Shown here: piece by piece, positions 4,507 through 28,175 of the stretch | Position numbering within the stretch: position 1 is the stretch's first letter | Layout: every line of letters begins with the position of its first letter | Assembly (NCBI RefSeq): GCF_000316625.1 | Contig: NC_019676.1 | Location: forward strand, 4,172,501 to 4,236,500 | Length of the DNA stretch: 64,000 bases | Source of the DNA: Nostoc sp. PCC 7107 | Lineage (GTDB): Bacteria; Cyanobacteriota; Cyanobacteriia; Cyanobacteriales; Nostocaceae | Direction: 5' to 3' | Program-made: the position numbers and the translations under genes | Notes under the pieces: generated by a model | The model's input: only the letters and a program-made list of their open reading frames with translations | What the model was told of the DNA's origin: nothing | The model's database searches: none

Positions 4507-7401
4507 ATGCTTGAACTTTGGGGTGCCTTAGTTATTTTAATTGCCTGCCCCTTATTAGGCGGCTTACCGCTAATAGCCTGGATTACCAACGGGTTAACAG
4601 GTAGGCGATTGTCACAAATAGGCACAAAAAACATCAGCGTCTCTGCTGCTTTTTATCATGGCGGCACTTGGGTAGGGCTTTTGGCGGTATTGTCAGAAGC
4701 CTTAAAAGGAATTGCCGCAGTTTTTCTGACTCGTGCTTTTTTCCCAGATGGATCACCTTGGGAAATAGTCGCCCTGATAGCCTTAGTCTTAGGTAGATTT
4801 TGGTTAGGCAAAGGGGCGGGAACCACTAATGCTGCTTGGGGATTTCTCATCCATGATCCCCTAGTGACGGTATTTGTCAGTTTTTTGGCAATCACGACAT
4901 TTTTAGTATTTCGTGCCAAAAAACCAGTAAAGTACGGGGTGTTAGTTTTGTTTCCCTTACTTGTGACTATTGTGCATTCGGATGATTTATTTAGAATGCT
5001 GGCCGCGATCGCCTTAGCTGTATTATTAGGCTGGATTTATCGGCAAATGCCTGACGATTTAGATTTACCAGCCCAAGAAGCACAAACAGATACACAAGCA
5101 ACATTAGAAAAGTTACAGGGCGATCGCCCAATTTGGACTTTAGATAATGAATTAGATGGGGCAATAGTTGGGCAGAAAGCTGCTACCCTCTCGCAAATTA
5201 AGCGTTGGGGTTATCCTGTGCCGAAAGGTTGGGTTGTTGTCCCAGGTGCTGATCCAGAAAAGTTAATCGCCATTCTTCAACCATCAGATTTATCGCCGTT
5301 AATCGTGCGTTCATCAGCCATTGGGGAAGATTCCGAACACGCTTCCGCCGCTGGACAGTATGAAACTGTAATTAGTGTCACCAGCAAACAGCAACTGCAA
5401 ACAGCGATCGCCCAAGTGCGTGATTCTTACAATCATCCAACGGCTGTACAATATCGTAGCGATCGCGGTTTACCAGAAACAGCAATGACTGTACTGGTGC
5501 AACAGCAAGTGCAAAGCGTATATTCAGGCGTGGCTTTTACTCGCGATCCCATTACCCAACAAGGTGATGCGATCGTCATTGAGGCTTTACCCGGTAGCCC
5601 CATTCAAATTGTTTCTGGACAAGTCACACCAGAACCATATCGCGCCTTTGTCGTCGAGACAGATAATATTTCATCTATTCATATAGAAGGTACAGGACAA
5701 GTCCCCCAGTCCATCCTCAAACAAGTCGCTTACCTCGCCCACCGCATCGAAAAACGTTATCACGGTATACCCCAAGATATTGAGTGGAGTTATGACGGTC
5801 AAACTTTGTGGGTGTTACAGGCGAGGCCGATTACTACCCTGTTACCTATTTGGACACGCAAAATTGCCGCGGAAGTGATTCCCGGTGTGATTCATCCTTT
5901 AACGTGGTCAATTAATCGCCCATTAACTTGTGGCGTGTGGGGTGATATTTTCACAATTGTTTTAGGCGATCGCGCTTCTGGGTTAGATTTTACAGATACT
6001 GCTACACTGCATTACTCCAGAGCTTATTTTAATGCCTCCCTCTTAGGAGATATTTTTCTGCGGATGGGTTTACCGCCAGAAAGTTTAGAATTTCTCACCA
6101 GAGGCGCAAAAATGAGTACACCGCCGTTGCAGTCAACAGTGCAGAATCTCCCAGGATTAATGCAGTTGCTGAAACAAGAATTAAATTTAGACAAAGAATT
6201 TAAGCAAGACTACCGCCAATTATTTATTCCTGGGTTATCTCAATTAGCCCATGAATCAATTGAGGATATGGAGTCGGCAGAAATTTTAGCCAGAATTGAC
6301 TTTAACTTAGAACTACTGCGACGTGGTACGTATTACAGCATTTTAGCGCCCTTGAGTGCAGCAATTAGACAATCAATTTTTCGGGTGAAAGATGGGCAGA
6401 TTGATAACAGTGTGACACCAGAAGTCGCCGCCTTGCGATCGCTCAGTGCTTTAGCCGCCGACGCGAGACAAGTATTACCAGAGTTTGAACCAGACAAAGT
6501 ATTTGAACAGTTAGAACAAACTCCCGAAGGCCAAAAAGTTCTGTACGAATTTAACGAACTGCTAGAAGATTACGGCTATTTAAGTGATGTGGGGACTAAT
6601 ATTGCTGTTCCTACCTGGAAAGAAGACCCCCGACCGATTCAGCAGTTATTCGTCCAGTTGATTCAAGGTAATCAACCGGAAACAGGCGATGTTGACCCAA
6701 TTAATCGCGCCTTATCAGGTAAACGCAAGCGTGGCTTTGTCCAAGAACGTGTAGATATTAAAGGACGGGTAACAGAGGTTTATTCCCGGCTATTAGCCGA
6801 ATTGCGCTGGCGATTTGTGGCGATTGAGAAAACTTGGCTAAAATCTGGGTTACTCAAAACAGCCGGAGATATTTTCTTTTTAGAAATAGCCGAAGTTAGA
6901 CAACTAATTGCCGAAGTTGAGACACCGTTGCGAGAACGCTTACCAGAAATTATCGAATATAGGCGATCGCAATTTATTGAAGATAGCAAAATTCCCCAAG
7001 TCCCAATTTTAATTTACGGCAATACACCACCGCACCCCCTGGCACCTTCTCCCATATACTCTGACCAAGTATTACAGGGTATTCCCGCCAGCCACGGACA
7101 AGCGGTCGGTCGAGTCAAAGTTGTGCGGAACTTACAAGATCTGCCCTACATCGACCGCGATACCATTTTAGTTGTCCCCTACACCGATTCTGGCTGGGCT
7201 CCTTTGTTAGTTAGGGCTGGTGGACTAATTGCGGAAGCTGGCGGGAGATTATCTCATGGCGCAATTGTCGCTCGTGAATACGGTATTCCCGCTGTGATGG
7301 ATGTCAGAGGTGCAACTTGGTTATTGCAAGATGGTCAACGAGTCCGCATTGATGGATCTAGGGGTATCGTAGAACTATCTAACGACTTAAGGCCACAATG
7401 A
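4507..7401 (+). CDS. PlsY-like membrane domain fused to PEP-synthase-type ATP-grasp and swivelling-His domains
   Basis: 964 residues in three parts. Residues 1-185 are hydrophobic, with several membrane helices and words recalling the acyl-phosphate glycerol-3-phosphate acyltransferase PlsY (GTKN, EALKGIAAVFL), but the third PlsY motif is degenerate (GRFWLGKGAGTTN; no His). Residues about 215-445 form a PPDK/PEP-synthase N-terminal ATP-binding domain (GQKAATLSQI, IVRSSAIGEDS, ending VLQARPITT). A long linker leads to a C-terminal PEP-utiliser mobile domain with the phospho-histidine H917 in GGRLSHGAIVARE. The order ATP-grasp, linker, swivelling His also occurs in rifampin phosphotransferases. 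There is no PEP/pyruvate TIM barrel, so it is not a true PEP synthase. Substrate unknown; the membrane part suggests a lipid or envelope role. It overlaps the cupin gene by 4 bases. Confidence 0.8.
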   Translation: MLELWGALVILIACPLLGGLPLIAWITNGLTGRRLSQIGTKNISVSAAFYHGGTWVGLLAVLSEALKGIAAVFLTRAFFPDGSPWEIVALIALVLGRFWLGKGAGTTNAAWGFLIHDPLVTVFVSFLAITTFLVFRAKKPVKYGVLVLFPLLVTIVHSDDLFRMLAAIALAVLLGWIYRQMPDDLDLPAQEAQTDTQATLEKLQGDRPIWTLDNELDGAIVGQKAATLSQIKRWGYPVPKGWVVVPGADPEKLIAILQPSDLSPLIVRSSAIGEDSEHASAAGQYETVISVTSKQQLQTAIAQVRDSYNHPTAVQYRSDRGLPETAMTVLVQQQVQSVYSGVAFTRDPITQQGDAIVIEALPGSPIQIVSGQVTPEPYRAFVVETDNISSIHIEGTGQVPQSILKQVAYLAHRIEKRYHGIPQDIEWSYDGQTLWVLQARPITTLLPIWTRKIAAEVIPGVIHPLTWSINRPLTCGVWGDIFTIVLGDRASGLDFTDTATLHYSRAYFNASLLGDIFLRMGLPPESLEFLTRGAKMSTPPLQSTVQNLPGLMQLLKQELNLDKEFKQDYRQLFIPGLSQLAHESIEDMESAEILARIDFNLELLRRGTYYSILAPLSAAIRQSIFRVKDGQIDNSVTPEVAALRSLSALAADARQVLPEFEPDKVFEQLEQTPEGQKVLYEFNELLEDYGYLSDVGTNIAVPTWKEDPRPIQQLFVQLIQGNQPETGDVDPINRALSGKRKRGFVQERVDIKGRVTEVYSRLLAELRWRFVAIEKTWLKSGLLKTAGDIFFLEIAEVRQLIAEVETPLRERLPEIIEYRRSQFIEDSKIPQVPILIYGNTPPHPLAPSPIYSDQVLQGIPASHGQAVGRVKVVRNLQDLPYIDRDTILVVPYTDSGWAPLLVRAGGLIAEAGGRLSHGAIVAREYGIPAVMDVRGATWLLQDGQRVRIDGSRGIVELSNDLRPQ

Positions 7402-7745
7402 TTACCACTTCCCTCAATAATTTGCCGGAAGAATGCGTTTCACACAACCCCGATATCAAAAAAAAGGTGATGTTACGCCTTGGCGAAATACCTCACCTCA
7501 CTAACTTTTCTCAAGCCCGTTTTGCACCCGGACACACTGCACCAGCACACACTCATTTAGATATGTGTGAAGTATTTTTTGTCGAAGCTGGTTCTGGTGT
7601 CATTCGTGTTGACAACCAAGAATATCCTTTGCTTCCCGGAAAGTGTATTGCAATTGAACCTGGGGAAGTTCACGAAGTCATCAATAATGGCGAAACTGAA
7701 CTTGTTCTCACCTACTTTGGTTTACTCGTGGAATCACAAGTGTAA
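7398..7745 (+). CDS. small cupin-domain protein
   Basis: 115 residues, single cupin barrel. Metal-binding motif 1 is visible as GHTAPAHTHLDMCEVFF (H51, H53, E58) and motif 2 as PGEVHEVINNG (H92). The start codon overlaps the stop of the preceding fusion gene (ATGA), so the two are almost certainly co-translated. Small cupins act as metal-dependent isomerases, oxygenases or sugar-binding regulators; the coupling suggests it works on the same substrate as the fusion enzyme, which is inference only. Confidence 0.85.
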   Translation: MITTSLNNLPEECVSHNPDIKKKVMLRLGEIPHLTNFSQARFAPGHTAPAHTHLDMCEVFFVEAGSGVIRVDNQEYPLLPGKCIAIEPGEVHEVINNGETELVLTYFGLLVESQV

Positions 7746-8071
7746 TTATTTGGGGATTTTCAATTTATTCCACTGATATATCTGGGGGTTCTCATACAAA
7801 GGAACTATGGGTTACAACAATCCGATACAATACTTAATATAAAATTTATCTATCTTATTAATTACCGAAACCTTACTTACTCAACAGGTATAGTATTTTA
7901 TCTATGCAAGCAATTTAATATTTATTTAATAATAAGACTTATAAATGATCAACATTGACTAGGAAAGCTGTAAGCTATTTCTAACCGTATTAACGTTAGT
8001 GATAAATAAGACTTACGAAAGTTGCAAGTTTTTTCAATCAATTTTTTGAACTCTCTTCGGCTTAACAATTT

Positions 8072-8109
8072 TCTACGGGAGATTCGGTCTCAACGACTCT
8101 CCATGTAGA
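8072..8109. other. interrupted hairpin
   Basis: TCTAC-g-GGAGA (8072-8082) pairs with TCTCC-at-GTAGA (8098-8109), loop about 15 bases. No T-tract follows on either strand, so it is not a simple terminator. Role unknown. Confidence 0.4.
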
Positions 8110-8583
8110 AAGGCACTATAAGTCTGCTGCTGCGTAAAGAAAATTTTGTTTTCTTTGCCTAATTTTTCATGCTTATAAAACATGAAATTTACCCAAAGTA
8201 GCTGACATTTTTATAAACCCAAATTTTGCATTTTTGTAACCAAAACCCCAGTATGGCATTGACTAATACTATCGATTTCAAGACTTCTCGGTTAAGAATT
8301 AAACGGCATTTAAGAATAAAAAAAGTGAGTGGCTGATGTTTAGTACTCGCTCCTGAGTGGATTGATTTTCTAGATGGAAACTTAGAGCGAGGTTTTTTCA
8401 CCACTCTGGGATTTGTTCTGCCAAGTCTTTGAGGGATTTTTTGCCCCAAAATTTCCAGGATTGGTTTGGAGAAAAAAAGGGTAGACCGTAAGCCCTGTCT
8501 ACAGGTTCTCGTGCAGCACCTGTGCTTTAGGTGTGAAGCGCATGACTCTTTTTTAAAGTTTATTTAGTTCATTTATTGCAATA

Positions 8584-8610
8584 CTCCTCATCAGAGGAAG
8601 CACAAGGAGG
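8584..8610 (+). promoter_or_regulatory. ribosome site of sbtA with possible occluding hairpin
   Basis: AAGGAGG lies 6 bases before the GTG start of sbtA. CTCCT (8584-8588) can pair with AGGAG (8605-8609) and hide the site, while the overlapping TCCTC (8585-8589) can pair with GAGGA (8594-8598) and free it. The pairings are visible; a regulatory switch is inference. Confidence 0.35.
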
Positions 8611-8615
8611 TATTC

Positions 8616-9725
8616 GTGGATTTTGTGTCCCTGTTCGTGAAAGACTTCATTCTTCAATTGCAGTCCCCAACACTCGCTTTTTTGATTGGTGGGATGATCA
8701 TTGCAGCTCTTGGTAGCGAACTGGTCATTCCAGAGGCAATTTGTACGATCATCGTCTTTATGCTGCTCACCAAAATCGGTCTGACTGGTGGAATTGCGAT
8801 CCGCAATTCCAACCTGGCGGATATGGTCTTACCCATGATCTTTGCCATCATGGTAGGAATTCTTGTTGTTTTCATCGCGCGCTATACGTTAGCCAAGCTG
8901 CCAAAGGTCAAAGTCGTCGATGCGATCGCCACTGGGGGGTTGTTTGGAGCCGTGAGTGGTTCTACCATGGCCGCAGGCTTGACGGTACTGGAAGAACAAA
9001 AAATTCCATACGAGGCATGGGCTGGCGCACTCTATCCTTTTATGGATATCCCAGCGCTCGTAACTGCGATTGTGGTGGCTAACATTTATCTCAACAAGAG
9101 GAAGCATAAAGAAGCAGCCTACTCTACTGAGCAGCCTGTTGCGGCTGGTGATTATCCCGATCAAAAAGATTATCCCAGTAGCCGTCAGGAGTATCTCAGC
9201 CAGCAGAAGGGGGATGCGGATAATCGGGTCAAAATATGGCCAATCATCGAGGAAAGCCTCCGGGGTCCTGCCTTATCAGCAATGTTGTTGGGCCTCGCTC
9301 TGGGACTGTTTACCCAGCCGGAAAGTGTCTATAAAAGCTTCTACGATCCCGCCTTTCGCGGCTTGCTTTCGATCTTGATGCTGGTCATGGGGATGGAGGC
9401 TTGGTCAAGAATTGGCGAACTACGCAAGGTGGCGCAGTGGTACGTAGTGTATAGCGTGGTGGCACCGTTTGTGCATGGGTTAATTGCCTTCGGTCTCGGT
9501 CTGATTGCTCACTACACCATGAACTTCAGTATGGGCGGTGTCGTGATCCTGGCTGTCATCGCCTCCTCTAGTTCAGACATCTCAGGGCCGCCTACGTTGC
9601 GAGCCGGTATCCCGTCAGCCAATCCCTCTGCCTATATAGGTGCATCCACAGCCGTCGGTACGCCAATTGCGATCGGTTTGTGTATACCGTTCTTCATCGG
9701 GCTTGCCCAGGCGATCGGCGGCTAA
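8616..9725 (+). CDS. sbtA: SbtA, sodium-dependent bicarbonate transporter
   Basis: 369 residues, close to the usual 370. It is almost entirely hydrophobic: two halves of about five helices each (1-165 and 215-369) joined by a hydrophilic cytoplasmic loop (about 165-210, rich in K, E, Q, Y). Recognisable words are VIPEAICTIIVFMLLTKIG, GGLFGAVSGSTMAAGL and, in the second half, SSSSDISGPPTLRAGIP. SbtA is a high-affinity Na+/HCO3- symporter of the inner membrane. The GTG start has AAGGAGG six bases upstream. sbtB follows after 85 bp and a Na+/H+ antiporter after that, as expected for a Na+-driven system. Composition is clearly more GC-rich than the flanks, suggesting transfer from another cyanobacterium. 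Confidence 0.95.
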   Translation: MDFVSLFVKDFILQLQSPTLAFLIGGMIIAALGSELVIPEAICTIIVFMLLTKIGLTGGIAIRNSNLADMVLPMIFAIMVGILVVFIARYTLAKLPKVKVVDAIATGGLFGAVSGSTMAAGLTVLEEQKIPYEAWAGALYPFMDIPALVTAIVVANIYLNKRKHKEAAYSTEQPVAAGDYPDQKDYPSSRQEYLSQQKGDADNRVKIWPIIEESLRGPALSAMLLGLALGLFTQPESVYKSFYDPAFRGLLSILMLVMGMEAWSRIGELRKVAQWYVVYSVVAPFVHGLIAFGLGLIAHYTMNFSMGGVVILAVIASSSSDISGPPTLRAGIPSANPSAYIGASTAVGTPIAIGLCIPFFIGLAQAIGG

Positions 9726-14281: not shown

Positions 14282-15862
14282 CTAATTACCAATTTTTGGC
14301 GCATTCAATGAAAGCTTAGGTGCTGCTTCTTTTTCCTGCGCCAAAGTTGGTACAGAATCCCGCAATCTTGCGGTCAATTGTACGGTTGTAGCGTCGTAAA
14401 TTTGAGTCAGCAATTTTGGATAGAAACCAATCCCAATAATTGGCACTAGCAAACAAGCAATGATAAAGACTTCACGGGGTTCAGCATCGATAAGTTTCTG
14501 GTGAGAAACTAATTCCTCATTTTCTTTGCCGTAGAAAATTTCCCGCAACATCGATAGCAAATAAATTGGCGTTAAAATCACACCAACTGCCATCAAGAAC
14601 ACTACGATAACTTTAAAGGTAGAGCTATAAGCATCGCTAGTGGCAAAGCCCACAAATACCATCAATTCTGCTACGAAACCACTCATTCCTGGTAATGCTA
14701 AAGAAGCCATTGAACAGGTAGTAAACATAGCGAAAATTTTCTGCATTCGCTTACCAACACCACCCATTTCATCTAGCATGAGGGTGTGTGTGCGATCGTA
14801 AGTTGCACCGACCAGAAAGAATAAACTTGCCCCAATTAAGCCGTGAGACACCATTTGTAAAACTGCCCCACTCAATCCCAAATCTGTGAAGGAGGCGAGA
14901 CCGATGAGGACAAAGCCCATGTGAGATATTGAGGAATAAGCAATTTTTCGCTTGAGGTTGCGCTGGGCAAAGGATGTCAGGGCGGCGTAGATAATGTTAA
15001 CCACCCCCAAAACCACTAACACCGGTGCAAAATAAGCGTGGGCATCAGGAAGCATTTGGGCATTCATCCGAATTAAGGCGTAACCGCCCATTTTCAAGAG
15101 AATACCTGCTAATAACATGTGTACTGGGGCTGTAGCTTCACCGTGGGCATCAGGTAGCCATGTGTGCAAGGGAATAATGGGTAACTTGACAGCGTAGGCA
15201 ATCAGGAAGCCAGCATACAGCGCCAGTTGGAAATTTAGGGCGAAATCTTTTAAAGCGAGCGATCGCATATCAAATGTTATCGTATCGCCGTAAAATCCCA
15301 TTGTCAGGGCAGACAGCAAAATAAACAGCGAACCACCAGCTGTGTACAAAATAAACTTTGTGGCTGCATATTGCCGCTTCTTACCTCCCCAAATCGACAG
15401 TAGGAAGTATATCGGTACTAGTTCCAGTTCCCACACCAGGAAAAATAACAGCATATCCTGTACGGCGAAGACGGCAATTTGACCGCCATACATCGCCAAA
15501 ATCAAAAAGTAAAATAGCCTGGGTTTGAGGGTTACAGGCCATGCTGCCAAAATTGCCAGGGTAGTAATGAATCCAGTCAAAAGAATTAGGGGCATAGATA
15601 AGCCATCTGCCCCTACTGACCACTTCAAATCTAGTTGTGGTACCCAGGCATAACTTTCAAACAGCTGCAAATCTGGATTGGAGAAGTCATACCCGGTATA
15701 AAAGGCGTAGACAATCAATGCAAAGTCTAGTAACCCAATAATCAGGGAATACCAGCGCACAGTTTTACCATCTTTATCAGGGATGATCGGAATCAGGAGT
15801 GATGCCGCAATCGGAAATAGGATAATCGTCGTCAGCCACGGGAAATTAGCTGTATTCATCAC
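14282..15862 (-). CDS. ndhD: NAD(P)H-quinone oxidoreductase subunit 4 (NdhD1-type)
   Basis: 526 residues with about 14 membrane helices, normal for cyanobacterial NdhD. It is one of the antiporter-like proton-pumping subunits of thylakoid NDH-1. Clear family words are [19 protein letters not shown] (with the conserved membrane Glu), [19 protein letters not shown] and [15 protein letters not shown]. Subunit D1 with F1 makes the NDH-1L complex for respiration and cyclic flow; D3/D4 types serve CO2 uptake. I favour D1 because of the ndhF partner on the same strand about 5.8 kb upstream. In relatives, as I recall, the two are adjacent; here an accessory island separates them, so ndhD must use another promoter. 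Confidence 0.93.
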
Positions 15863-16066
15863 AATTTATCTGCAATCAAAATCATGTTTTTCAAGGAAGC
15901 CCTAGCTATTAAGTAGCAGCTTTTTGGGGATTTGGCATTCCTTGTTAGGTTGATTTAATTAAGTGGGCAATTGCCATTTTTTCGCTTGGCAGTATCTTTT
16001 AATTTTCGGGGCTACTGAATCTCCGTTATCATACTTGCCGTTAAGTCACATCTTGCACCAAGCCCC

Positions 16067-16182
16067 GACGAATGGAATTTGCGGCTAAACAAACGAAGTC
16101 CGCCTGCGCGGACTAATGGAAAACCAAGCCTTTTGAGCCTGCAAAGGCAGGCTTTGGTCGTGTAGCCGCGATTTTAATCGTC
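16067..16182 (+). mobile_element. MITE-like palindromic element, copy 1
   Basis: Imperfect terminal inverted repeats of about 23 bases (GACGAATGGAATTTGCGGCT at the left; GACGATTAAAATCGCGGCT read inward from the right) enclose two small hairpins: GTCCGC/GCGGAC and GCCTGC/GCAGGC. A second copy of similar length in inverted orientation lies at 21517-21633, and a half copy at 54692-54742. No coding capacity. Confidence 0.75.
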
Positions 16183-16188
16183 AGGCTA

Positions 16189-16222
16189 GAATTATAGCGA
16201 TGCGATCGCATCGCTATAATTC
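16189..16222. repeat. 34-bp perfect palindrome centred on a HIP1 octamer
   Basis: Bases 16189-16222 read the same on both strands; the centre is GCGATCGC (16202-16209) within TAGCGATGCGATCGCATCGC. It abuts the MITE-like element and lies 80 bp before the antitoxin-like gene. Possible cruciform, methylation target or operator. Confidence 0.75.
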
Positions 16223-16303
16223 AGTTGCAAAAATTACATAATGTTTGGTAGTTGTCAAAAAAGCGATTTGGTGCGAAAAAAGCATTACAGGAGAGATAAG
16301 CAC

Positions 16304-16561
16304 ATGATCAGAGGACAAATTGGCAGTCAAATTCGTTATGTCAATAACGCAGATGGAGAAACAACAGATGTACTCGTCCCGATAGAACTTTGGCAACAAT
16401 TGATGAGTTGCATCAATTCTGATAACGTTAGTGGTTTAGCTGAGATTGATGAACAAGAGCCAAAAGCGCAAATATTAGCTGACTTGCAAGAATCCTTACG
16501 ACAAGCAGCATCAGGACAAACTTTCCCAGTTTCAGAACTTTGGGACGATATCACAGCCTAG
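16304..16561 (+). CDS. antitoxin-like small protein
   Basis: 85 residues from the ATG at 16304, chosen because AGGAGAGA lies about 8 bases before it; an upstream in-frame ATG at 16241 has no such signal. The N-terminal third is a small beta-rich segment (GQIGSQIRYVNN, TTDVLVPIELWQQL), and the C-terminus ends ESLRQAASGQTFPVSELWDDI. That tail pattern is frequent in cyanobacterial antitoxins coded just before RelE/ParE-type toxins. A decayed toxin frame follows 4 bases after its stop. Function by context only. Confidence 0.6.
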   Translation: MIRGQIGSQIRYVNNADGETTDVLVPIELWQQLMSCINSDNVSGLAEIDEQEPKAQILADLQESLRQAASGQTFPVSELWDDITA

Positions 16562-16565
16562 ATTT

Positions 16566-16667
16566 ATGGCAGAAGTTCGCTTTACCGATCCCTTCAAAAG
16601 TAAATTTATGATCGCTCTCATCACTACAATAGGCGATCGCACCACAAGATTAAGGATTAATTTTTAA
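16566..16667 (+). pseudogene. remnant of a RelE/ParE-type toxin gene
   Basis: A 33-codon frame beginning MAEVRFTDPFKSKF, which looks like the first strand and helix of RelE/ParE-family toxins, then losing all similarity and stopping. It starts 4 bases after the antitoxin-like gene, the normal toxin position. A full toxin would need about 85-100 residues. The antitoxin may thus be an orphan. Confidence 0.45.
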
Positions 16668-16740
16668 TAGAGGAAGGGCGATTACCCGCGATCGCTTATC
16701 ATTTATTTACTGTGTAACCCTCCTCCAAAGTAATCACTTC

Positions 16741-18792
16741 ATGCCTTTCTCCGATTTCACCAACCCTTATCAAAATCCAGCTGACATACCACAGAATTAT
16801 CGCCAGCATATAAATCTACTGAAGTTATTTAAAGCTGATGGTTCTTATGTGCGTCCAGCAGAAGACCCTGTGACGATGTGGGCGCTTCAGATTTTAGTAG
16901 AAGAGTACGGTGTTCCACTAGAGGCAATGGAACTAGAACTAAATTCAGATTTTGCCGAGGGAACTTATCAAGGTGGGCGACGCTATCAAGGACGGGCAGA
17001 CCTTGTAGTTTACGATGACCGTTATGCTGATTCTGTAGGTAATTTGGATGTAGCCTTCATTATGGTGGAGGCTATGGAACCAAGTAAAAAAGTTGGCGGG
17101 ACTGAAGGCGAAGGTTGGGTTGATCATCTTAACCGACTCAATGCTTACATGAGTGCTTCACCATCTGCCCGTTATGCGATTTTAACCAGTGGTAAACATA
17201 CAGTAATTTATCGTCGTGACCTTGACTACCCACGCAAGTTAGAACCTATTGGCGATTTACCTAAATATGAAAGCGCCCGTGAAGCCGCACAGCACAGCCC
17301 TTATACTGTAATCCTTAATCCCAGTGAACCAGATGGGATTCAAACTGGACTAACGCCACTAACTCGTGATAAATTTCGGGAGGTTTTGGGAGACACACGA
17401 TCTGGTTGTCACTCTATTCTGAGAGATAACGAGGGTTTGCAGCCACAAGAAGCCGTTGATGCAATGGTTAAATTCTTGTTTGCTAAGTGGTATGACGAAC
17501 AGGCAACAATTGACTTGGTAAAGCAAACAGGAGAATCACGGGCTTATGTATTTAGTGTTAGTAATGAAACTGACCCAGAACGTTTATTAGTTCAAGTTAG
17601 AGACTCTTTTGAAAAAGCCAAGCAGTGGGAACGGGACACACTAGCGAGAAAATTTGGTGATGATTTGGGTGTGCGTTTGGCATTTAATGAAGCTGATGTG
17701 TTGCAATTCAAGCCACACACGACAATGGAAATCGTCAAGCGTTTACAGCCTTGGAGTTTGCGAAAATCTTCAGCAGATGTCAAAGGTGGAGTATTTGAGG
17801 ATTTTTTAAGCAAGACTTTTCGGGATGATTTGGGGCAATATTTCACACCTACACCAGTAATTAATTTAATGGTAGGGATTTTGCAACCTACAGTAAATGA
17901 TTATGTTGGCGATCCTGCTTGCGGTTCAGCGCGGATTTTGACGCACGTTTTGGATTATGTGCGTAAGCAGGAGTATGCAAAAGCAATAGCAAATAATGGT
18001 GGTAGTGCTGAAGGGATTAATCCTGAAGAACCAACCCAAGAGTTTATCAAGTTTCGAGATAATCATTTATTTGGTGCTGAATATTCTCGAAATGTGATGC
18101 ACGTAGCGCGAGTTAATACTTTAATGAATGGCGCACAATATGCCGATTTAAAGGTAATGGATTCGCTGGAGCGATTGGGTAGCATTACAGGAGGAATTAC
18201 AGAGGGGCTTCCAGAACGTCCAGGTTTTTATCTGGGAGGGTTGACGATGATTTTAACTAATCCTCCCTTTGGTTCTAAATTGACAAATGAAAATGTTTTG
18301 AAGGACTTTGCTGGACGAGATGGAGTGACAAAAAAAAAGGGCAAGGTTGTTAAAAGTATTCCTCAAGAAGTTGCTTTTTTAAATCGTTGTTTGGAATATC
18401 TTGCACCAAATGGAAAGTTAGCAATTGTTTTGCCTGATGGGTTATTAGCGAATAGTTCAACGCAAGATGTACGCGACTGGATTTTACGCTGGGCTAGATT
18501 GAAAGCAGTGCTGAGTTTACCACAAGAAACATTTGCACCTTATGGTGCTGGTGTTAAATCTAGTATCTTAGTTTTAGAAAAACGAGCTATTGCTCTTGCT
18601 ATTGGAGAACAAATTGAAATTAATCAGATAGTTGTAGAGGAAGAAGACTATAAAGTTTATATGGCAAGAATTGATGATATTGGTTATGACGCTTCTGGGC
18701 GTTCAAAAGTAAAAGAAGAAGAGGCTTCATTTTGCTCTGAAATACAATCAACTATAAAGACCTTCCATGAAAAATTAGGATGGTGTATTTAA
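16741..18792 (+). CDS. nuclease-like N-terminal domain fused to N6-adenine DNA methyltransferase
   Basis: 683 residues. Residues 40-160 match the HsdR N-terminal-like fold (HSDR_N_2): ELELNSDFAEGTYQGGRRYQ, RADLVVYDDR with D87, and FIMVEAMEPSKK. In active PD-(D/E)xK enzymes the last motif is E-x-K; here it reads E110-A-M112, so the catalytic lysine seems lost. Residues about 340-640 form an HsdM-type methylase: FEDFLSKTFRDDLGQYFTPT, SAM motif GDPACGSA (390-397), FGAEYSRNVMHVARVNTLMN, and catalytic NPPF (507-510). Nuclease-like plus methylase in one chain with a separate S subunit recalls BcgI-type (type IIB) systems. No HsdR helicase lies nearby. The S gene begins 3 bases after the stop. Modification without cutting, or restriction by an unseen partner, are both open. 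Confidence 0.85.
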   Translation: MPFSDFTNPYQNPADIPQNYRQHINLLKLFKADGSYVRPAEDPVTMWALQILVEEYGVPLEAMELELNSDFAEGTYQGGRRYQGRADLVVYDDRYADSVGNLDVAFIMVEAMEPSKKVGGTEGEGWVDHLNRLNAYMSASPSARYAILTSGKHTVIYRRDLDYPRKLEPIGDLPKYESAREAAQHSPYTVILNPSEPDGIQTGLTPLTRDKFREVLGDTRSGCHSILRDNEGLQPQEAVDAMVKFLFAKWYDEQATIDLVKQTGESRAYVFSVSNETDPERLLVQVRDSFEKAKQWERDTLARKFGDDLGVRLAFNEADVLQFKPHTTMEIVKRLQPWSLRKSSADVKGGVFEDFLSKTFRDDLGQYFTPTPVINLMVGILQPTVNDYVGDPACGSARILTHVLDYVRKQEYAKAIANNGGSAEGINPEEPTQEFIKFRDNHLFGAEYSRNVMHVARVNTLMNGAQYADLKVMDSLERLGSITGGITEGLPERPGFYLGGLTMILTNPPFGSKLTNENVLKDFAGRDGVTKKKGKVVKSIPQEVAFLNRCLEYLAPNGKLAIVLPDGLLANSSTQDVRDWILRWARLKAVLSLPQETFAPYGAGVKSSILVLEKRAIALAIGEQIEINQIVVEEEDYKVYMARIDDIGYDASGRSKVKEEEASFCSEIQSTIKTFHEKLGWCI

Positions 18793-18795
18793 TAA

Positions 18796-20205
18796 ATGGA
18801 AGATACTATCATTGCAATTAGCCGATTAAGAAATAAAAAAAAATGGGCTTATTCATTTCATTCTGAATCATCTCTTCAAACTGAAGAATACTTAAAAAAT
18901 ACTAGTTTTGAAATTCAGAAACTAGGAAAATTAGTTGCAGAAATTACTGATGGTTTACATTCTACTCGTCATTATGTAGATGATGGCATAATAGTGTTAG
19001 CAGTTAGGAATATAACTGAATTTGGTTTAGATTTATCTAATAAAAAAATGATAAATCAAGCAGAACATGAGCATTTTAAACGCTCACAAGTACAGCCAGG
19101 AGATTTGTTAGTTACTATCACAGGAAGGTTAGGAACTGCATTAGTATATACATCTGAAAAGCCTGCAAATCTTAGCGCCCATGTTGCCCGTGTAAAAGTT
19201 CATGCTAATAAAGTCAATCCTTACTATTTAGCAGCATACCTAAATTCAAATTTTGGAAAACAGTTACTTAATGAACATTCGATCGGAAGTCTATATCCAC
19301 ATATTAACGTTAATGGACTTCAAAATGTGCAAATTATTCTTCCTCGGAGACATATTCAAGATCGCATTGCCCAAATAATGCAGGATGCTTACATAGTAAA
19401 TAAGAAAAAACTAGCAGAAATAGAAGCTTTGCTCAATAACTTTGATGAGTTTGTAATGAAGGAGATGGGTTTGTCTTCTATTATATTTAAAGATGAAAAA
19501 GACTTTACTGTAAATATTAAACAAATGAGAGGTGGTAGATTTGACCTAGACTTATATAATACTAAGTATATAAATCTTATTTCATCTCTCAGAAAAGAAT
19601 TTAATTTAAATCTAAAAAAACTAGTATCCATTACTGAACCAATTACAAGCGGGACAACTCCATTAAACTCACAGTATCTAGAAACAGGAATCCCCTTCTT
19701 ACGAGTGCAAAATATTAGTAATGAGGGAATTTTAAATTGGGAGAACTGCTTATTTGTTTCTGAAGAATTTGCTCAAACTATCCATCGTTCTAATATTAAA
19801 GATGGGGATATATTACTTGTTATTGTTGGTGCAACTATTGGGAAATGCGCTGTTGTTATGGGTGTTAATTCCATAACGGTAATTAATCAAGCTCTTGCAC
19901 GCATTAGAGTTAAAAAAGATATTCCTATAAATCCTAATTACCTCCAAGCTTTTTTAAGCTGCCCAGCAGGACAAATCCAAATCTCTGCCTTAAAAAGACC
20001 TGTGGCTCAAGGTAATTTAAGTCTTACAGAAACAGGACAAATACTTATTCCTATTATTCCTGATGAAGTTCAAAATGCCATAACCAAGGAAATGGAGCAT
20101 CGTCGATTCCTTATCAAGAAATTACGCAAAGAAGCAAAGCAAATTATTATAGAAGCAAAAGCCTGTGTAGAACGGATGATATTAGGAGAAGAAGAGGTGA
20201 CATGA
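18796..20205 (+). CDS. type I/IIB-like specificity subunit (HsdS)
   Basis: 469 residues with two target-recognition domains. TRD1 is about 30-195 (GDLLVTITGRLGTALVYT), followed by a conserved helical spacer (about 190-225). TRD2 is about 255-425 (GTTPLNSQYLETGIPFLRVQ, GDILLVIVGATIGKC), followed by a second helix at the C-terminus (EHRRFLIKKLRKEAKQIIIE). Two TRDs predict a bipartite target. The ATG is three bases after the methylase stop, so they are one operon; it overlaps the next gene by 4 bases. AT-rich with lysine runs, unlike the methylase, as is usual for exchanged S genes. Confidence 0.88.
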   Translation: MEDTIIAISRLRNKKKWAYSFHSESSLQTEEYLKNTSFEIQKLGKLVAEITDGLHSTRHYVDDGIIVLAVRNITEFGLDLSNKKMINQAEHEHFKRSQVQPGDLLVTITGRLGTALVYTSEKPANLSAHVARVKVHANKVNPYYLAAYLNSNFGKQLLNEHSIGSLYPHINVNGLQNVQIILPRRHIQDRIAQIMQDAYIVNKKKLAEIEALLNNFDEFVMKEMGLSSIIFKDEKDFTVNIKQMRGGRFDLDLYNTKYINLISSLRKEFNLNLKKLVSITEPITSGTTPLNSQYLETGIPFLRVQNISNEGILNWENCLFVSEEFAQTIHRSNIKDGDILLVIVGATIGKCAVVMGVNSITVINQALARIRVKKDIPINPNYLQAFLSCPAGQIQISALKRPVAQGNLSLTETGQILIPIIPDEVQNAITKEMEHRRFLIKKLRKEAKQIIIEAKACVERMILGEEEVT

Positions 20206-20675
20206 AGGAGGGGAACAAATATCAGCCACTCCTTGAGTTTTTGCGTGGCAGTGATCAAAATGAAATAACTCTATCATTTGCTGAAATTGAGACTTTAATA
20301 AATGATGTTTTGCCTGAATCAGCAAGAAATAAACAGGCATGGTGGAGTAACCGCAAACAAGGCTCATCACAAGCTTACGCTTGGATGAAAGCTGGATATC
20401 GTGTTGAGGAAGTGGATTTTGATCAGCAACAAGTGATGTTCCGTAAACCTCCTGATAAATATCAAGTTCAGCTTCAGGGTGATACTTTACTGTGGAATGC
20501 TGAGTTAATCAAAGCACTGCGGCAACACATGGATTTAACACAAGCGGAGTTTGCACAAAGGCTAGGTGTGCGACAAGCAACAGTGAGCCAATGGGAAAAA
20601 AGTGTATATGAGCCGACTTTAGCCACATCTAGGTATCTGACCTTAATTGCAAAACAAGCTGGATTCAAAATTTAA
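20202..20675 (+). CDS. two-domain HTH protein, likely controller of the methylase operon
   Basis: 157 residues, start overlapping the specificity gene stop (ATGA). Residues 5-82 form a small domain with YQPLLEFLRG, SFAEIETLINDVLP, AWWSN (W47-W48) and AWMKAGYRVEEVDF, a pattern found next to restriction-modification and other defence genes (DUF7662-like, from memory). Residues 101-155 are an XRE-type helix-turn-helix (LTQAEFAQRLGVRQATVSQWE). By position and fold it could be a C-protein that times expression of modification and any nuclease. DNA-binding target unknown. Confidence 0.75.
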   Translation: MKEGNKYQPLLEFLRGSDQNEITLSFAEIETLINDVLPESARNKQAWWSNRKQGSSQAYAWMKAGYRVEEVDFDQQQVMFRKPPDKYQVQLQGDTLLWNAELIKALRQHMDLTQAEFAQRLGVRQATVSQWEKSVYEPTLATSRYLTLIAKQAGFKI

Positions 20676-20747
20676 ACTAAATCTATTTACATAATAATAC
20701 TTTACCGCATATATTGTTTTTTAGTCAAACATTTTATTCGGTAGAGC

Positions 20748-21081
20748 ATGAATATTGAAAACACCGAACCCAAAGCCCTCTTCCTCTCCCCCGACGGCAA
20801 CGTATACCCAGACAACCTAATTTGCTCCGGCATCATCCCCGCAGAACTCGACGGCAAACCCTGCCCCCATTCCCAAGCAGGGCGCTTTCCTGGAGTCAGA
20901 CCCCTCAATCCTGGAGACTCAAACTACACCATCGACAAAGGAAAACCAGGCGACCTCTGCCCAATCTGCGCCAAACAACAACTTGCACACCTTGGACACT
21001 GGCAAGGTCACAGAAATCAAATATTCCCTGAAGAACTTCTATCATTACGCTTGTTCAAGTGCCGGATGTGGCTATGGCTAG
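20748..21081 (+). pseudogene. cysteine-containing hypothetical gene with apparent frameshift
   Basis: The first frame (20748 to about 20980) codes a plausible protein with LFLSPDGNVYPDN, GKPCPHSQAGRFPGV and GDLCPICAKQQ. After that the frame turns into unlikely sequence and runs to 21137. In the +1 frame from 20983 the reading LDTGKVTEIKYSLKNFYHYA, with C and G residues after it, ends at a TAG at 21079-21081 and looks like the true C-terminus. A one-base indel near CAAACAACAACTT (about 20972-20984) would join the two. Either a recent pseudogene, a sequence error or programmed shifting. A zinc-binding role is possible from the CPxC and CxxxxC cysteines; function unknown. Confidence 0.55.
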
Positions 21082-21281
21082 TTGTCCCAGGACTGCACGA
21101 TCGCAACGCAACCCAGCTTTTACCGCAAAAGCTATGAGATGAGAGTGTTTAGAAGCGATGAAAACACACTCAAACTTACAGCAACCCCGCAACAAAAATA
21201 CAAATCTTGTCAGAAGCCAGCAAATAAGTTTCCAAGGCTTCCTGCTGGCTCTTGGCTCCCTAACAAAAGGAGACATTCACC

Positions 21282-21491
21282 ATGATAAAACCAGTTATTG
21301 TCCAAAATCATCCTTGGGTAATAGTAAAAACTGTAGTGATTACCCAATCTCACACCGTCGCCCGTTTTGCTAACCGCCAAGATGCAGACGACCATTTAAG
21401 ATTTTTGCGTCGAACTATTCCCAACGGAGGTTTTGAGATTATGTTTGAACCACCAGATGATGTAAGAGAAGAAAAAAGGAGTCTAAATTAG
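21282..21491 (+). CDS. conserved-looking small protein of unknown function
   Basis: 69 residues. AAAGGAGA lies about 8 bases before the ATG. The sequence VKTVVITQSHTVARFANRQD then DDHLRFLRRTIPNGGFEI reads as a compact alpha/beta domain with normal composition. Such short proteins are common in Nostoc genomes but I do not recognise a named family. It closes the accessory island; the MITE-like element copy 2 begins 25 bases after its stop. Confidence 0.6.
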   Translation: MIKPVIVQNHPWVIVKTVVITQSHTVARFANRQDADDHLRFLRRTIPNGGFEIMFEPPDDVREEKRSLN

Positions 21492-21516
21492 GCTCCTAAA
21501 AAATTTGGGGTAAAAG

Positions 21517-21633
21517 GGCAGTTAGAAACCGCGTCTACACAGGCAAAACCCACCTCCGTGGGTTTCAAAAATTCAATTTTTCCTTAGTCCGCGAAGGCGG
21601 ACTTTGTTTGTGTAGCCGCGAATTCTATTCGCC
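21517..21633 (-). mobile_element. MITE-like palindromic element, copy 2 (inverted)
   Basis: Read on the - strand it begins GGCGAATAGAATTCGCGGCT, then the hairpin GTCCGC/GCGGAC, an A-rich spacer, a second hairpin (ACCCAC/GTGGGT) and the opposite end with CGCGTCTACAC. Same plan and nearly the same length as copy 1, opposite orientation. The two copies bracket the 5.4 kb accessory island between ndhD and ndhF. Confidence 0.75.
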
Positions 21634-21657
21634 CTGGCTCTAATTTGACTACACAAA

Positions 21658-23751
21658 TCAGGTCACACCAAAAACGATCACTAAGCCTAAAACTGCACCA
21701 AACACAATCAAGGCATAGAATTGAACGCGACCGTTTTCTAAATATTTCAACCCTTCGCCGCTGACTAGGGTGAAAAAGCCTGTCAAGTTGACAGCACCAT
21801 CAACAACGCGGAAGTCAACCTCCATGACTTGTCTAGCTAGGCGACGCAAGCCAAGGACGAAGACGCGATGGTAAATGTCATCAAAGTACCACTTGTTGAG
21901 GGATAGTTCGTACAGAGGTTTGATTTTAGCAGCGATCGCAGCGGGGTCAATTTTCCCGCGCAAGTACATCAAGGAAGCTAAGGTAATCCCAATCAAGGAA
22001 ATCCCCACTGAAGCCCCCGCCATAATATAAAATTCCGTCGGGTCGAACTCGGCGGCTTTTTCTAGAACTTCGGTGAGAGTTTCGTTGGGTGAGTAAATAA
22101 ATTCCTCAAAGTAATTGGCAAAGGGAGTCCCCACCAAACCAATCAAAATCGAAGGCACGGCCAGCACTACTAATGGTAATGTCATTGTCCACGGTGATTC
22201 ATGGGGAGAATCGCTGTGATGACCATGAGAATCATGATGGTCTCCTGTGGCAGCTAACTCACCGTGTTTCATTGCCCCAGGTCCAAAATTCGGGGCTGGT
22301 TCGGCGGTTTGTAATTCGAGAATGATTGTCGATGCTTTTTTCAGCTTGTCTTTGATTTTCTCGTCATTTCCCCGGAATTTGCCTTCAAATGTCATGAAAT
22401 ACATTCTGAACATATAGAAAGCAGTAATACCAGCCGTTAGCCAGCCAATAATCCACAGAAATGGGTTGGCCTCAAATGCCTTACCGAGAATTTCATCTTT
22501 TGACCAAAAACCAGCAAAAGGAGGCATCCCGGAAATGGCCAAGCAACCAATCAAGAAGGTTGTAGCTGTGACGGGCATATATTTCCGCAGTTTACCCATC
22601 AGCCGCATATCCTGGGCTAAAGCAGGGTCATGACCGACGACTCCTTCCATCCCATGAATCACAGAACCAGAACCTAAAAACAGCATCGCCTTGAAATAAG
22701 CGTGAGTCATCAGGTGGAACAAGCCAGCACTGTAAGCGCCTACTCCCATCGCCATCACCATGTAACCCAATTGGGAAATGGTGGAGTATGCCAAGCCTTT
22801 TTTGATGTCGTTCTGCGTAATCGCAATTGTCGCCCCTAAAAACGCTGTAAATGCCCCAGTAAAGGCAATGACGTTCATGGCGGCGGGTACGTGTTCAAAA
22901 ACAGGGTACATCCGGGCAACGAGGAATACACCTGCTGCCACCATTGTGGCGGCGTGGATTAAGGCAGAAATGGGTGTCGGGCCTTCCATCGCGTCTGGTA
23001 GCCAGACATGGAGGGGGAATTGTGCCGATTTTGCCACTGGGCCTAAGAAAACCAAAATTGCAAACAGAACTGCGAGAAAATTGCTAATTGTACCTGATTG
23101 CACTAGTTGAGCGAGGCGATCGCCCATGATATGAAAGTCGAAACTGCCGGTTGCCCAAAACAGTCCCAAAATACCGAGTAATAGACCAAAGTCACCGACT
23201 CGGTTGGTGACAAATGCTTTTTGACAGGCATCTGCCGCTGACTTGCGATCGTACCAAAAGCCGACCAGCAAGTAGGAACACATCCCCACCAGTTCCCAGA
23301 AGATATAAATTTGCACTAAGTTGGGGCTGATCACCAGACCCAACATTGAGGAGCCGAATAAGCTCAGATAAGCGTAAAACCTTACATATCCTGGATCATG
23401 TGCCATGTAGCCATCGGTGTAGACCATGACTAGAAAGGCTACGGTTGTCACAATTACCAGCATGAGGGCAGTTAGATGGTCAATAGTGTAGCCCATGCTC
23501 AGGTGAAAATTCCCGGCTGCGGCCCATTCCAAGGTACGAAGATAAGTCGGATGTCCTTGAATTTGACTCCAGAGCAAGGCAAACGACAAACCCATCGCTG
23601 CTCCCATCAAGGAGATAATCAACACAGCGTTGAGTTGTCTTAGGCTGTTAGTCACCTGATTTATCGAAATTAATCCCAAACCGACCAGCATTGCCCCTAA
23701 CAGAGGGAATACTGGAATCAGCCAGGCATATTCATAGATTGCTTCCATCAC
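21658..23751 (-). CDS. ndhF: NAD(P)H-quinone oxidoreductase subunit 5 (NdhF1-type)
   Basis: 697 residues, about 16 membrane helices plus a His/Asp-rich hydrophilic loop (HGELAATGDHHDSHGHH, about 495-515) before the lateral helix region. Core words are DRVGDFGLLLGI-like NRVGDFGLLLGILGLFWATG, FPLHVWLPDAMEGPTPISAL and KKGLAYSTISQLGYM. It is the distal proton-pumping subunit of NDH-1 in the thylakoid membrane. The start is the ATG at 23749-23751, opening MMEAIYEYAWLIPVFPLLGA. The leader carries a hairpin at 23785-23824. The downstream element copy 2 and the island separate it from ndhD. Confidence 0.93.
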   Translation of the reverse strand: MMEAIYEYAWLIPVFPLLGAMLVGLGLISINQVTNSLRQLNAVLIISLMGAAMGLSFALLWSQIQGHPTYLRTLEWAAAGNFHLSMGYTIDHLTALMLVIVTTVAFLVMVYTDGYMAHDPGYVRFYAYLSLFGSSMLGLVISPNLVQIYIFWELVGMCSYLLVGFWYDRKSAADACQKAFVTNRVGDFGLLLGILGLFWATGSFDFHIMGDRLAQLVQSGTISNFLAVLFAILVFLGPVAKSAQFPLHVWLPDAMEGPTPISALIHAATMVAAGVFLVARMYPVFEHVPAAMNVIAFTGAFTAFLGATIAITQNDIKKGLAYSTISQLGYMVMAMGVGAYSAGLFHLMTHAYFKAMLFLGSGSVIHGMEGVVGHDPALAQDMRLMGKLRKYMPVTATTFLIGCLAISGMPPFAGFWSKDEILGKAFEANPFLWIIGWLTAGITAFYMFRMYFMTFEGKFRGNDEKIKDKLKKASTIILELQTAEPAPNFGPGAMKHGELAATGDHHDSHGHHSDSPHESPWTMTLPLVVLAVPSILIGLVGTPFANYFEEFIYSPNETLTEVLEKAAEFDPTEFYIMAGASVGISLIGITLASLMYLRGKIDPAAIAAKIKPLYELSLNKWYFDDIYHRVFVLGLRRLARQVMEVDFRVVDGAVNLTGFFTLVSGEGLKYLENGRVQFYALIVFGAVLGLVIVFGVT

Positions 23752-26810: not shown

Positions 26811-28175
26811 ATGGAAGCTTACTGCACCCGTCCACGCTGCCCCCGCCCGAAAAACTATTTTGCCGACCTAGATGAAGCAACAACCTTAAAAACAGCGCAG
26901 CAAAAATACTGCGCTACCTGTGGGATGCCACTCATCCTCGATGGTAGATACATATCTACCAAATTGCTGGGTCGGGGAGGATTTGCTTCTGCCTTCCTCG
27001 CACGCGATCGCCGCATTCCTGGAATCCGTGCTTGTGTAGTCAAACAGTTCCAACCAGCAGAAAATATCAGTGCCAATCAACTGCGAATCGCTCAACAACT
27101 ATTTGAAAGAGAAGCAGATGTCTTAGCCGAAATCGGCAGAGAACACGAACAAATACCGGAACTATACGCTTTTTTTCAAACTACTGTTCCTGGCTTTAAT
27201 CAGCCAAATCACGAAGAACAGTTTTTTTACCTAGTACAAGAATATATTGATGGACTAAATCTTGAGGAAGAACTAACGCAAAAGGGTAAATTTTCTGAAG
27301 CAGAAATTTTATACATGCTGCAAGAAATCCTGAAGGTACTCAAGTTTGTCCATGATAAAAGTATTATTCATCGAGATATTAAGCCTTCCAATATCATGCG
27401 CCGCCAGGATGGGAAATTATTTCTCTTAGATTTTGGCGCAGTTAAGCAAGTCACAAATGTCGTAACAGGTACGATTGCATCATCTACGGGAATTTATTCA
27501 GCCGGATTTGCACCCCCAGAACAGATGACAGGGAATCAAGTATTTCCCTGTACAGATTTATATGCTTTGGCTGTTACCGCTGTCACCTTGCTCACAGGTG
27601 AACCAGCTACACAGTTATTCGACCCATTGATTAACCAGTGGACATGGCGATCGCACGTGAATATTAACCCCCGCCTAGCTGATGTTTTAGATAAAATGCT
27701 TTTGCCTGCGGTCAGTCAACGCTTTCAATCAGCGGAGGAAGTGCTAAAAGAACTTTTTCCCCAGCTAATACCCCCAACTACTCTTGGAAACACACCACCC
27801 CAACGCCACGGAATAAAGCCGCCTGCCATTTTTTCCACTAGGGATTTATTATCAGGGGCAGCTGTGAGCGGCTTTGAAAGTGCATTAATTGCGATCGCCT
27901 TATATAGTCTGATACCCACACCAATCATCGTTTTAACCATCACAATGGTGATTTTAAGTGTGAGCATTTTTGCTCACACTCGACGCTCGATTAAAACCAC
28001 ACATTTATTGATTGTTGCGGTAATTACTTTTGCGATCGTTCTTTTCGTTCCTGCCTTGCAAGCAGGAATGGATATTCAACAAATAGTAATTTTAGGAATT
28101 ACTGGCAGTTTAGTAGCTATTGCCGTCACCACACTATTTCAGCTTATATACAAGTTATTATCTATGATGTTTTAG
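26811..28175 (+). CDS. Ser/Thr protein kinase with N-terminal zinc ribbon and membrane tail
   Basis: 454 residues. C5, C10, C34 and C37 form a zinc-ribbon-like leader (CTRPRC...CATC). The kinase domain spans about 45-315: glycine loop LLGRGGFASAF, K78 in VVKQF, HRDIKPSN (187-194), and DFG (207-209). All catalytic residues are present. Residues about 350-450 hold three or four membrane helices, so the kinase faces the cytoplasm from the inner membrane. Many such kinases exist in filamentous cyanobacteria. The PstS-like gene follows on the same strand, though with its own Pho box. Substrates unknown. Confidence 0.9.
   Translation: MEAYCTRPRCPRPKNYFADLDEATTLKTAQQKYCATCGMPLILDGRYISTKLLGRGGFASAFLARDRRIPGIRACVVKQFQPAENISANQLRIAQQLFEREADVLAEIGREHEQIPELYAFFQTTVPGFNQPNHEEQFFYLVQEYIDGLNLEEELTQKGKFSEAEILYMLQEILKVLKFVHDKSIIHRDIKPSNIMRRQDGKLFLLDFGAVKQVTNVVTGTIASSTGIYSAGFAPPEQMTGNQVFPCTDLYALAVTAVTLLTGEPATQLFDPLINQWTWRSHVNINPRLADVLDKMLLPAVSQRFQSAEEVLKELFPQLIPPTTLGNTPPQRHGIKPPAIFSTRDLLSGAAVSGFESALIAIALYSLIPTPIIVLTITMVILSVSIFAHTRRSIKTTHLLIVAVITFAIVLFVPALQAGMDIQQIVILGITGSLVAIAVTTLFQLIYKLLSMMF

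Follow-up and report, generated by a model that had tools for sequence, protein, structure and literature searches.

A Type IIB-like methylase locus in Nostoc sp. PCC 7107 that lacks the catalytic lysine and probably modifies DNA without cutting

Does an enzyme of restriction-modification (R-M) type that carries a nuclease-like domain without its catalytic lysine still cut DNA, and if not, what does it do? The question is raised by a locus in Nostoc sp. PCC 7107, which we analysed in a 64,000-nucleotide stretch (the window; positions 4172501-4236500 of the 6.33-Mb single-contig genome). Its plus-strand gene M (16741..18792) encodes an R-M-like subunit of 683 amino acids with an endonuclease-fold domain (about residues 1-200), a connector and an N6-adenine methylase (about 330-620), and gene S behind it (18796..20205, plus strand) encodes a specificity subunit with two target-recognition stretches. 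The third gene, H (20202..20675, plus strand), encodes a DUF7662 and HTH_3 protein, a probable transcriptional regulator. Pfam-type matches were N6_Mtase and HSDR_N_2 (slightly below cut-off) for M, two Methylase_S stretches for S, and DUF7662 plus HTH_3 for H; the M gene is uninterrupted, and its DPACGSA and NPPF methylase motifs are intact. We confirmed everything that a first-pass annotation had described here, namely the fused nuclease-like domain with D87, E110 and Glu-Ala-Met112, the intact methylase, the S subunit with two target-recognition domains (TRDs) and the HTH gene. It had overlooked a fourth operon gene (20748..21137, plus strand), which encodes a 129-amino acid protein with five cysteines.

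We found by profile search, with a family profile of 18 rows, that the top solved relative of M is the Type IIB subunit BsaXI (E 3.6e-70), with both domains covered. According to PMC11997821, BsaXI does not cleave once E73, D90, E105 or K107 is replaced by alanine, and these four residues are called absolutely conserved within that paper's Type IIB family. In M, codon 66 (Glu; 16936..16938, plus strand) corresponds to BsaXI E73 when positions are counted in the printed alignment, codon 87 (Asp; 16999..17001, plus strand) lies on D90, and codons 110-112 (Glu-Ala-Met; 17068..17076, plus strand) lie on E105-V-K107. All 19 aligned N-terminal domains of the family share the three acids E66, D87 and E110, and position 112 is Met in 16 of these and Leu in 3. 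Hence, of the four BsaXI catalytic residues, M is without the lysine alone. The first-pass annotation had offered, as one of two choices, a former Type IIB-like system reduced to modification or regulation, and this is now the best-supported reading, given the match to BsaXI and the single missing residue: we favor, with some but not strong confidence, a Type IIB-derived, lysine-less, modification-only complex with a regulator, whose family probably marks DNA without cutting.

The first-pass annotation had also suggested that the loss of the lysine could be recent and proposed a survey of residue 112 in orthologues, and the survey overturns the suggestion. Among 25 loci, 22 were readable at this residue (L019, L022 and L034 have no aligned stretch there), and these have 19 Met, 3 Leu and no Lys. 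In the alignment used for the tree, Met (15) or Leu (2) stands in each of the 17 family rows that include the domain, and 28 of 31 outgroup rows have Lys; the outgroup rows were chosen by hand, 2 of 33 are without the domain, and the MAD2 protein of genome G318 (L118) stood outside the tree. The family forms one clade, on a long stem, with SH-aLRT support of 100 in a midpoint-rooted tree built by a quick method. Hence, the loss of the lysine is old and most simply single. Relatives were found with six peptide patterns, one of which, FIMVEAME, is biased towards Met112; seven loci without it (L004, L007, L010, L011, L015, L016 and L018) were recovered through the other patterns. The methylase family was found mainly in cyanobacteria, and the closest relatives of M are in Nostocales.

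We found that the locus is maintained, with a ratio of nonsynonymous to synonymous substitution (dN/dS) well under 1 in every part. For M, with 9 of 10 comparisons usable, dN/dS was 0.12-0.34 in residues 1-200, 0.035-0.12 in residues 200-330 and 0.08-0.16 in residues 330-620; for H, it was 0.12-0.25 (7 usable of 8), and for the cysteine gene 0.12-0.26 (8 usable of 9). S changes far more: loci L004, L006 and L017 have an M that is 89-91% identical and an S that is about 30% identical, and L003 has 94% and 54%, respectively. A target recognition that is in use would be expected to give such divergence of S beside a near-identical M.

Several points weigh against a modification-only complex. The 18-row profile includes four distant proteins, three of them with Lys, which help anchor the alignment to BsaXI, and three outgroup rows are also without Lys (Hymenobacter MAD2, Asn; L032, Arg; L150, Glu). 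All Leu rows (L015, L016 and L018) are interrupted genes from metagenome bins, and the Chloroflexota labels of L012, L015 and L018 rest on such bins, so the names may err. In 8 of the 9 comparisons, dN/dS was higher in the N-terminal domain than in the methylase part. Neither H nor the cysteine gene was seen next to the M-S pairs of L006 and G336. In some PD-(D/E)xK enzymes another residue replaces the lysine, and the invariant acids could reflect a working metal site. Against maintenance of the locus stand at least 13 related M genes with a truncation, frameshift, stop or internal deletion (L014, L015, L016, L018, L021-L026, L034, G416 and G336).

This damage is what a decaying relic of an R-M system would leave, and we consider that explanation very improbable for the window, where the copy is intact and dN/dS is low throughout the locus. 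A single recurrent break site in M was not supported. In L014, L021, L022, L023 and L026 the M-S genes have internal deletions and the HTH gene is intact; in L154 (G416, 7074-9155) a reverse transcriptase gene (RVT_1) lies directly behind a broken M.

The invariant acids also bear on a second alternative, in which the domain still cuts because another residue, e.g. K116 or K117, replaces the lysine. The first-pass annotation had named these two as possible active-site residues; they are Lys in 16 of 19 rows, including every Met row, but both are absent from the three Leu rows, and BsaXI K107A does not cleave (PMC11997821). Since the Leu rows all come from interrupted genes, they weigh less, so K116 and K117 may yet act as substitutes; for this reason we raised our estimate of a cutting enzyme, which is still improbable, and lowered that of a modification-only complex to the level given above.

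If the complex does not cut, a separate restriction subunit might be sought, and we found no open reading frame of at least 150 codons, among 513 in the window and 37 further stretches, that resembles the genome's own HsdR at E values up to 1. The genome has one HsdR above cut-off (5134844-5136928), although the model TIGR00348 misses some kinds of HsdR (above cut-off in 5 of 14 control genomes), and of 19 ResIII places in the genome the neighbourhood was inspected for the HsdR place only. This HsdR has its own S and M about 3.4 kb away on the same strand; hence, to judge from gene order, it is unlikely to partner the S subunit of the window. M-S pairs of the outgroup that have the lysine (on a Skermanella plasmid and in L148, L149, L151, L152 and L158) also stand without a recognised HsdR, which suggests that the ancestor was a two-gene RM.S enzyme.

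A third alternative, in line with the other choice of the first-pass annotation (a defence system whose effector is no standard HsdR), is methylation-linked defence with an exchangeable effector, in which the lysine-less M.S complex would sense or license DNA and another protein would kill. In one branch this would be a HEPN RNase-type protein, and in the window it might be the cysteine protein or the product of an unlinked gene. We found that nine loci (L005, L007-L011, L153, L155 and L156) have an S of only 228-231 amino acids adjoined by a HEPN-like gene (9/9), vs none of 12 loci with an S of at least 420 amino acids (the window, L003, L004, L006, L012, L015-L019, L021 and L157); L013, L014, L020, L022-L026, L034 and L154 were outside this count, with S truncated, missing or off the contig. 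All nine HEPN-like proteins (272-316 amino acids) have R-x4-H. Other genes precede H in some cassettes, namely NTP_transf_2/HepT pairs in L019 and G416 and a DUF3368 gene in L016, and in L008 (3-9874) the M-half-size S-HEPN-H cassette lies directly behind BrxL and PglZ-like (at cut-off) genes of BREX type, i.e. in a defence island. R-M-linked HEPN genes and a sensor role of inactive restriction endonuclease (REase) domains are described in PMC3710099 and PMC12839542, respectively.

This linkage has its weak sides. HEPN_Swt1 was above cut-off in one of three proteins tested (L005, 33.3 vs 27.5) and below it in L007 (21.3, where CSN8_PSD8_EIF3K scored 21.5) and L009 (26.4); the HEPN-like proteins of L155 (G303) and L007 are identical and may be one lineage; and toxin-antitoxin genes are common in the loci, so chance may account for the linkage. 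In the window itself no HEPN gene is present. H is present in eight of the nine HEPN loci, but the cysteine gene is intact in three and was not seen intact in six. We weighed an exchangeable effector upwards because MAD2, the corresponding subunit of the defence system MADS, is also without the lysine, and even so it is unlikely, though less so than continued cutting. Equally tentative is its fuller form: a Type IIB enzyme would have abandoned cutting, and its M.S complex would now serve as methylation sensor or licence, with separate effectors in place of the lost nuclease (a HEPN RNase in the branch with half-size S and, in the branch with full-size S, perhaps the five-cysteine protein) and the DUF7662-HTH protein as the switch, a course that MADS seems to have taken in parallel.

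For the modification-only complex, sequence, alignment, conservation and linkage were observed directly, and from them we infer stoichiometry, methylation, absence of cutting and regulation as follows. The locus would encode a Type IIB-like RM.S enzyme with its own nuclease permanently off. By analogy with BsaXI, two 683-amino acid subunits and one S would assemble, bind a bipartite site via the two TRDs and methylate adenine. With three acids kept and the cleavage lysine gone, unmodified DNA would remain uncut, and the endonuclease-fold domain may be retained for a structural role, for sensing, or for binding of DNA, metal or a partner. The operon is probably controlled by the DUF7662-HTH protein, which may act at an inverted repeat before M, and the five-cysteine protein would be an accessory.

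This repeat, TTAC-TGT-GTAA (16707..16717, 23 nucleotides before the M start codon), is a candidate operator; the window has it once, against an expected 0.04. Across the fetched loci, CTACTGTGTAG was limited to this place before M (13 records, 10 distinct places). In 9 of 18 other aligned loci, CTAC-TGT-GTAG stands at the same place, with both arms changed together; the other nine do not have this change. H may bind the TTAC-TGT-GTAA repeat, but the case for an operator is weak, as the exact word is absent from 9 of the 18 loci and the H allele types (60-65% vs 92-95% identity) do not track the site types.

We rejected H as a controller specific to R-M systems, since homologues that are 58-71% identical occur without M (8 of 8 stretches, 4 other genomes). 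The DUF7662-HTH genes of L094-L101, with no M nearby and up to seven matches per genome, often precede a small gene in which a PKTFVITLRQ stretch recurs. Genes annotated as HNH endonuclease cover a DUF7662-like stretch in the plasmid hits H47 and H48. In the literature library that was searched, no paper contains DUF7662, and among the titles listed by the other searches none on this methylase family was seen.

The five cysteines of the fourth protein are invariant in 13 aligned rows. It had no match in Pfam, PADLOC or NCBIfam, and its AF2 model (pLDDT 40.5) gave no usable fold. The gene is present in 15 of 25 mapped loci, and in the phylum sample it matched in 6 of 386 genomes, all six of which also have the lysine-less M family; the match was partial in G168, G303 and G389, and M was broken in G168 and G416. 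Because of the M-S pairs in L006 and G336, neither H nor the cysteine gene is obligatory.

Two minus-strand genes flank the locus, NdhD (14282-15862) and NdhF (21658-23751), both named from NCBIfam, and the plus-strand genes between them are an antitoxin-like gene, M, S, H and the 129-amino acid gene. The antitoxin-like gene (16241-16561) has a RelN-family match below cut-off, and the short remnant after it (16566-16667) resembles at its start a RelE/ParE-like toxin gene of which L005, L017, L022 and L026 have a longer form. The NdhD-NdhF gap (14282-23751 in the window, and in relatives) is an insertion hot spot that holds toxin-antitoxin-like genes and the M-S cassette in several Nostocales.

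The loss of a single catalytic lysine, old and to all appearance fixed, with three acids kept, would mean that modification was split from restriction within one enzyme family, which makes this family the counterpart in nature of BsaXI K107A, a mutant that is inactive. Should the complex still protect cells, its effector must be elsewhere, and the HEPN-linked branch offers one candidate; if it does not, a restriction enzyme has turned into a methylase with diversifying specificity.

Among known systems, the Type IIB enzymes of the BsaXI/BcgI kind are closest. Like BsaXI, M joins an REase domain, a connector and an N6 methylase in a single chain, with a separate S, and the profile match spans both domains. 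In contrast to BsaXI, the window family has Met or Leu at the catalytic lysine; the match stops at residue 604, with a short further piece at 607-626, so the C-terminal paddle was not seen in M; and the locus adds the DUF7662-HTH and cysteine genes. Since the catalytic lysine is replaced in 19 of 19 rows, the locus should not, on its sequence, be listed among the active Type IIB enzymes. Type I HsdM/HsdS share the methylase and S domains, whereas M has a fused endonuclease-fold domain, and no HsdR was recognised adjoining M and S in the window.

Nor should the locus be filed as MADS, which is cited in PMC11980395. The best NCBIfam models were MAD2 for M (280.7 bits, cut-off 720) and MAD5 for S (150.6 bits, cut-off 400), and we rejected membership on these scores, which are far under the curated cut-offs. 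The MADS operon holds a kinase and further mad genes; we found no kinase among the four operon genes or between M and NdhF, and a protein kinase gene beyond NdhF (26811-28175) belongs to a cluster present in 8 of 25 mapped loci. M is 27% identical to the Hymenobacter MAD2 (L057, 844 bits). Both MAD2 proteins above cut-off, this one and that of G318 (L118, 1004 bits, with one stop and compared in pieces), are without the lysine, but they have also lost the Glu of E-x-K in the alignments, which the window family keeps. This known defence system thus likewise appears to use an M subunit whose REase domain is eroded, which raises the chance, without proof, of defence through a separate effector. 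Orphan (solitary) DNA methyltransferases share with the window family a probable modification without a cutting partner, whereas in the window family the pseudo-nuclease domain is conserved and the S subunit diversifies.

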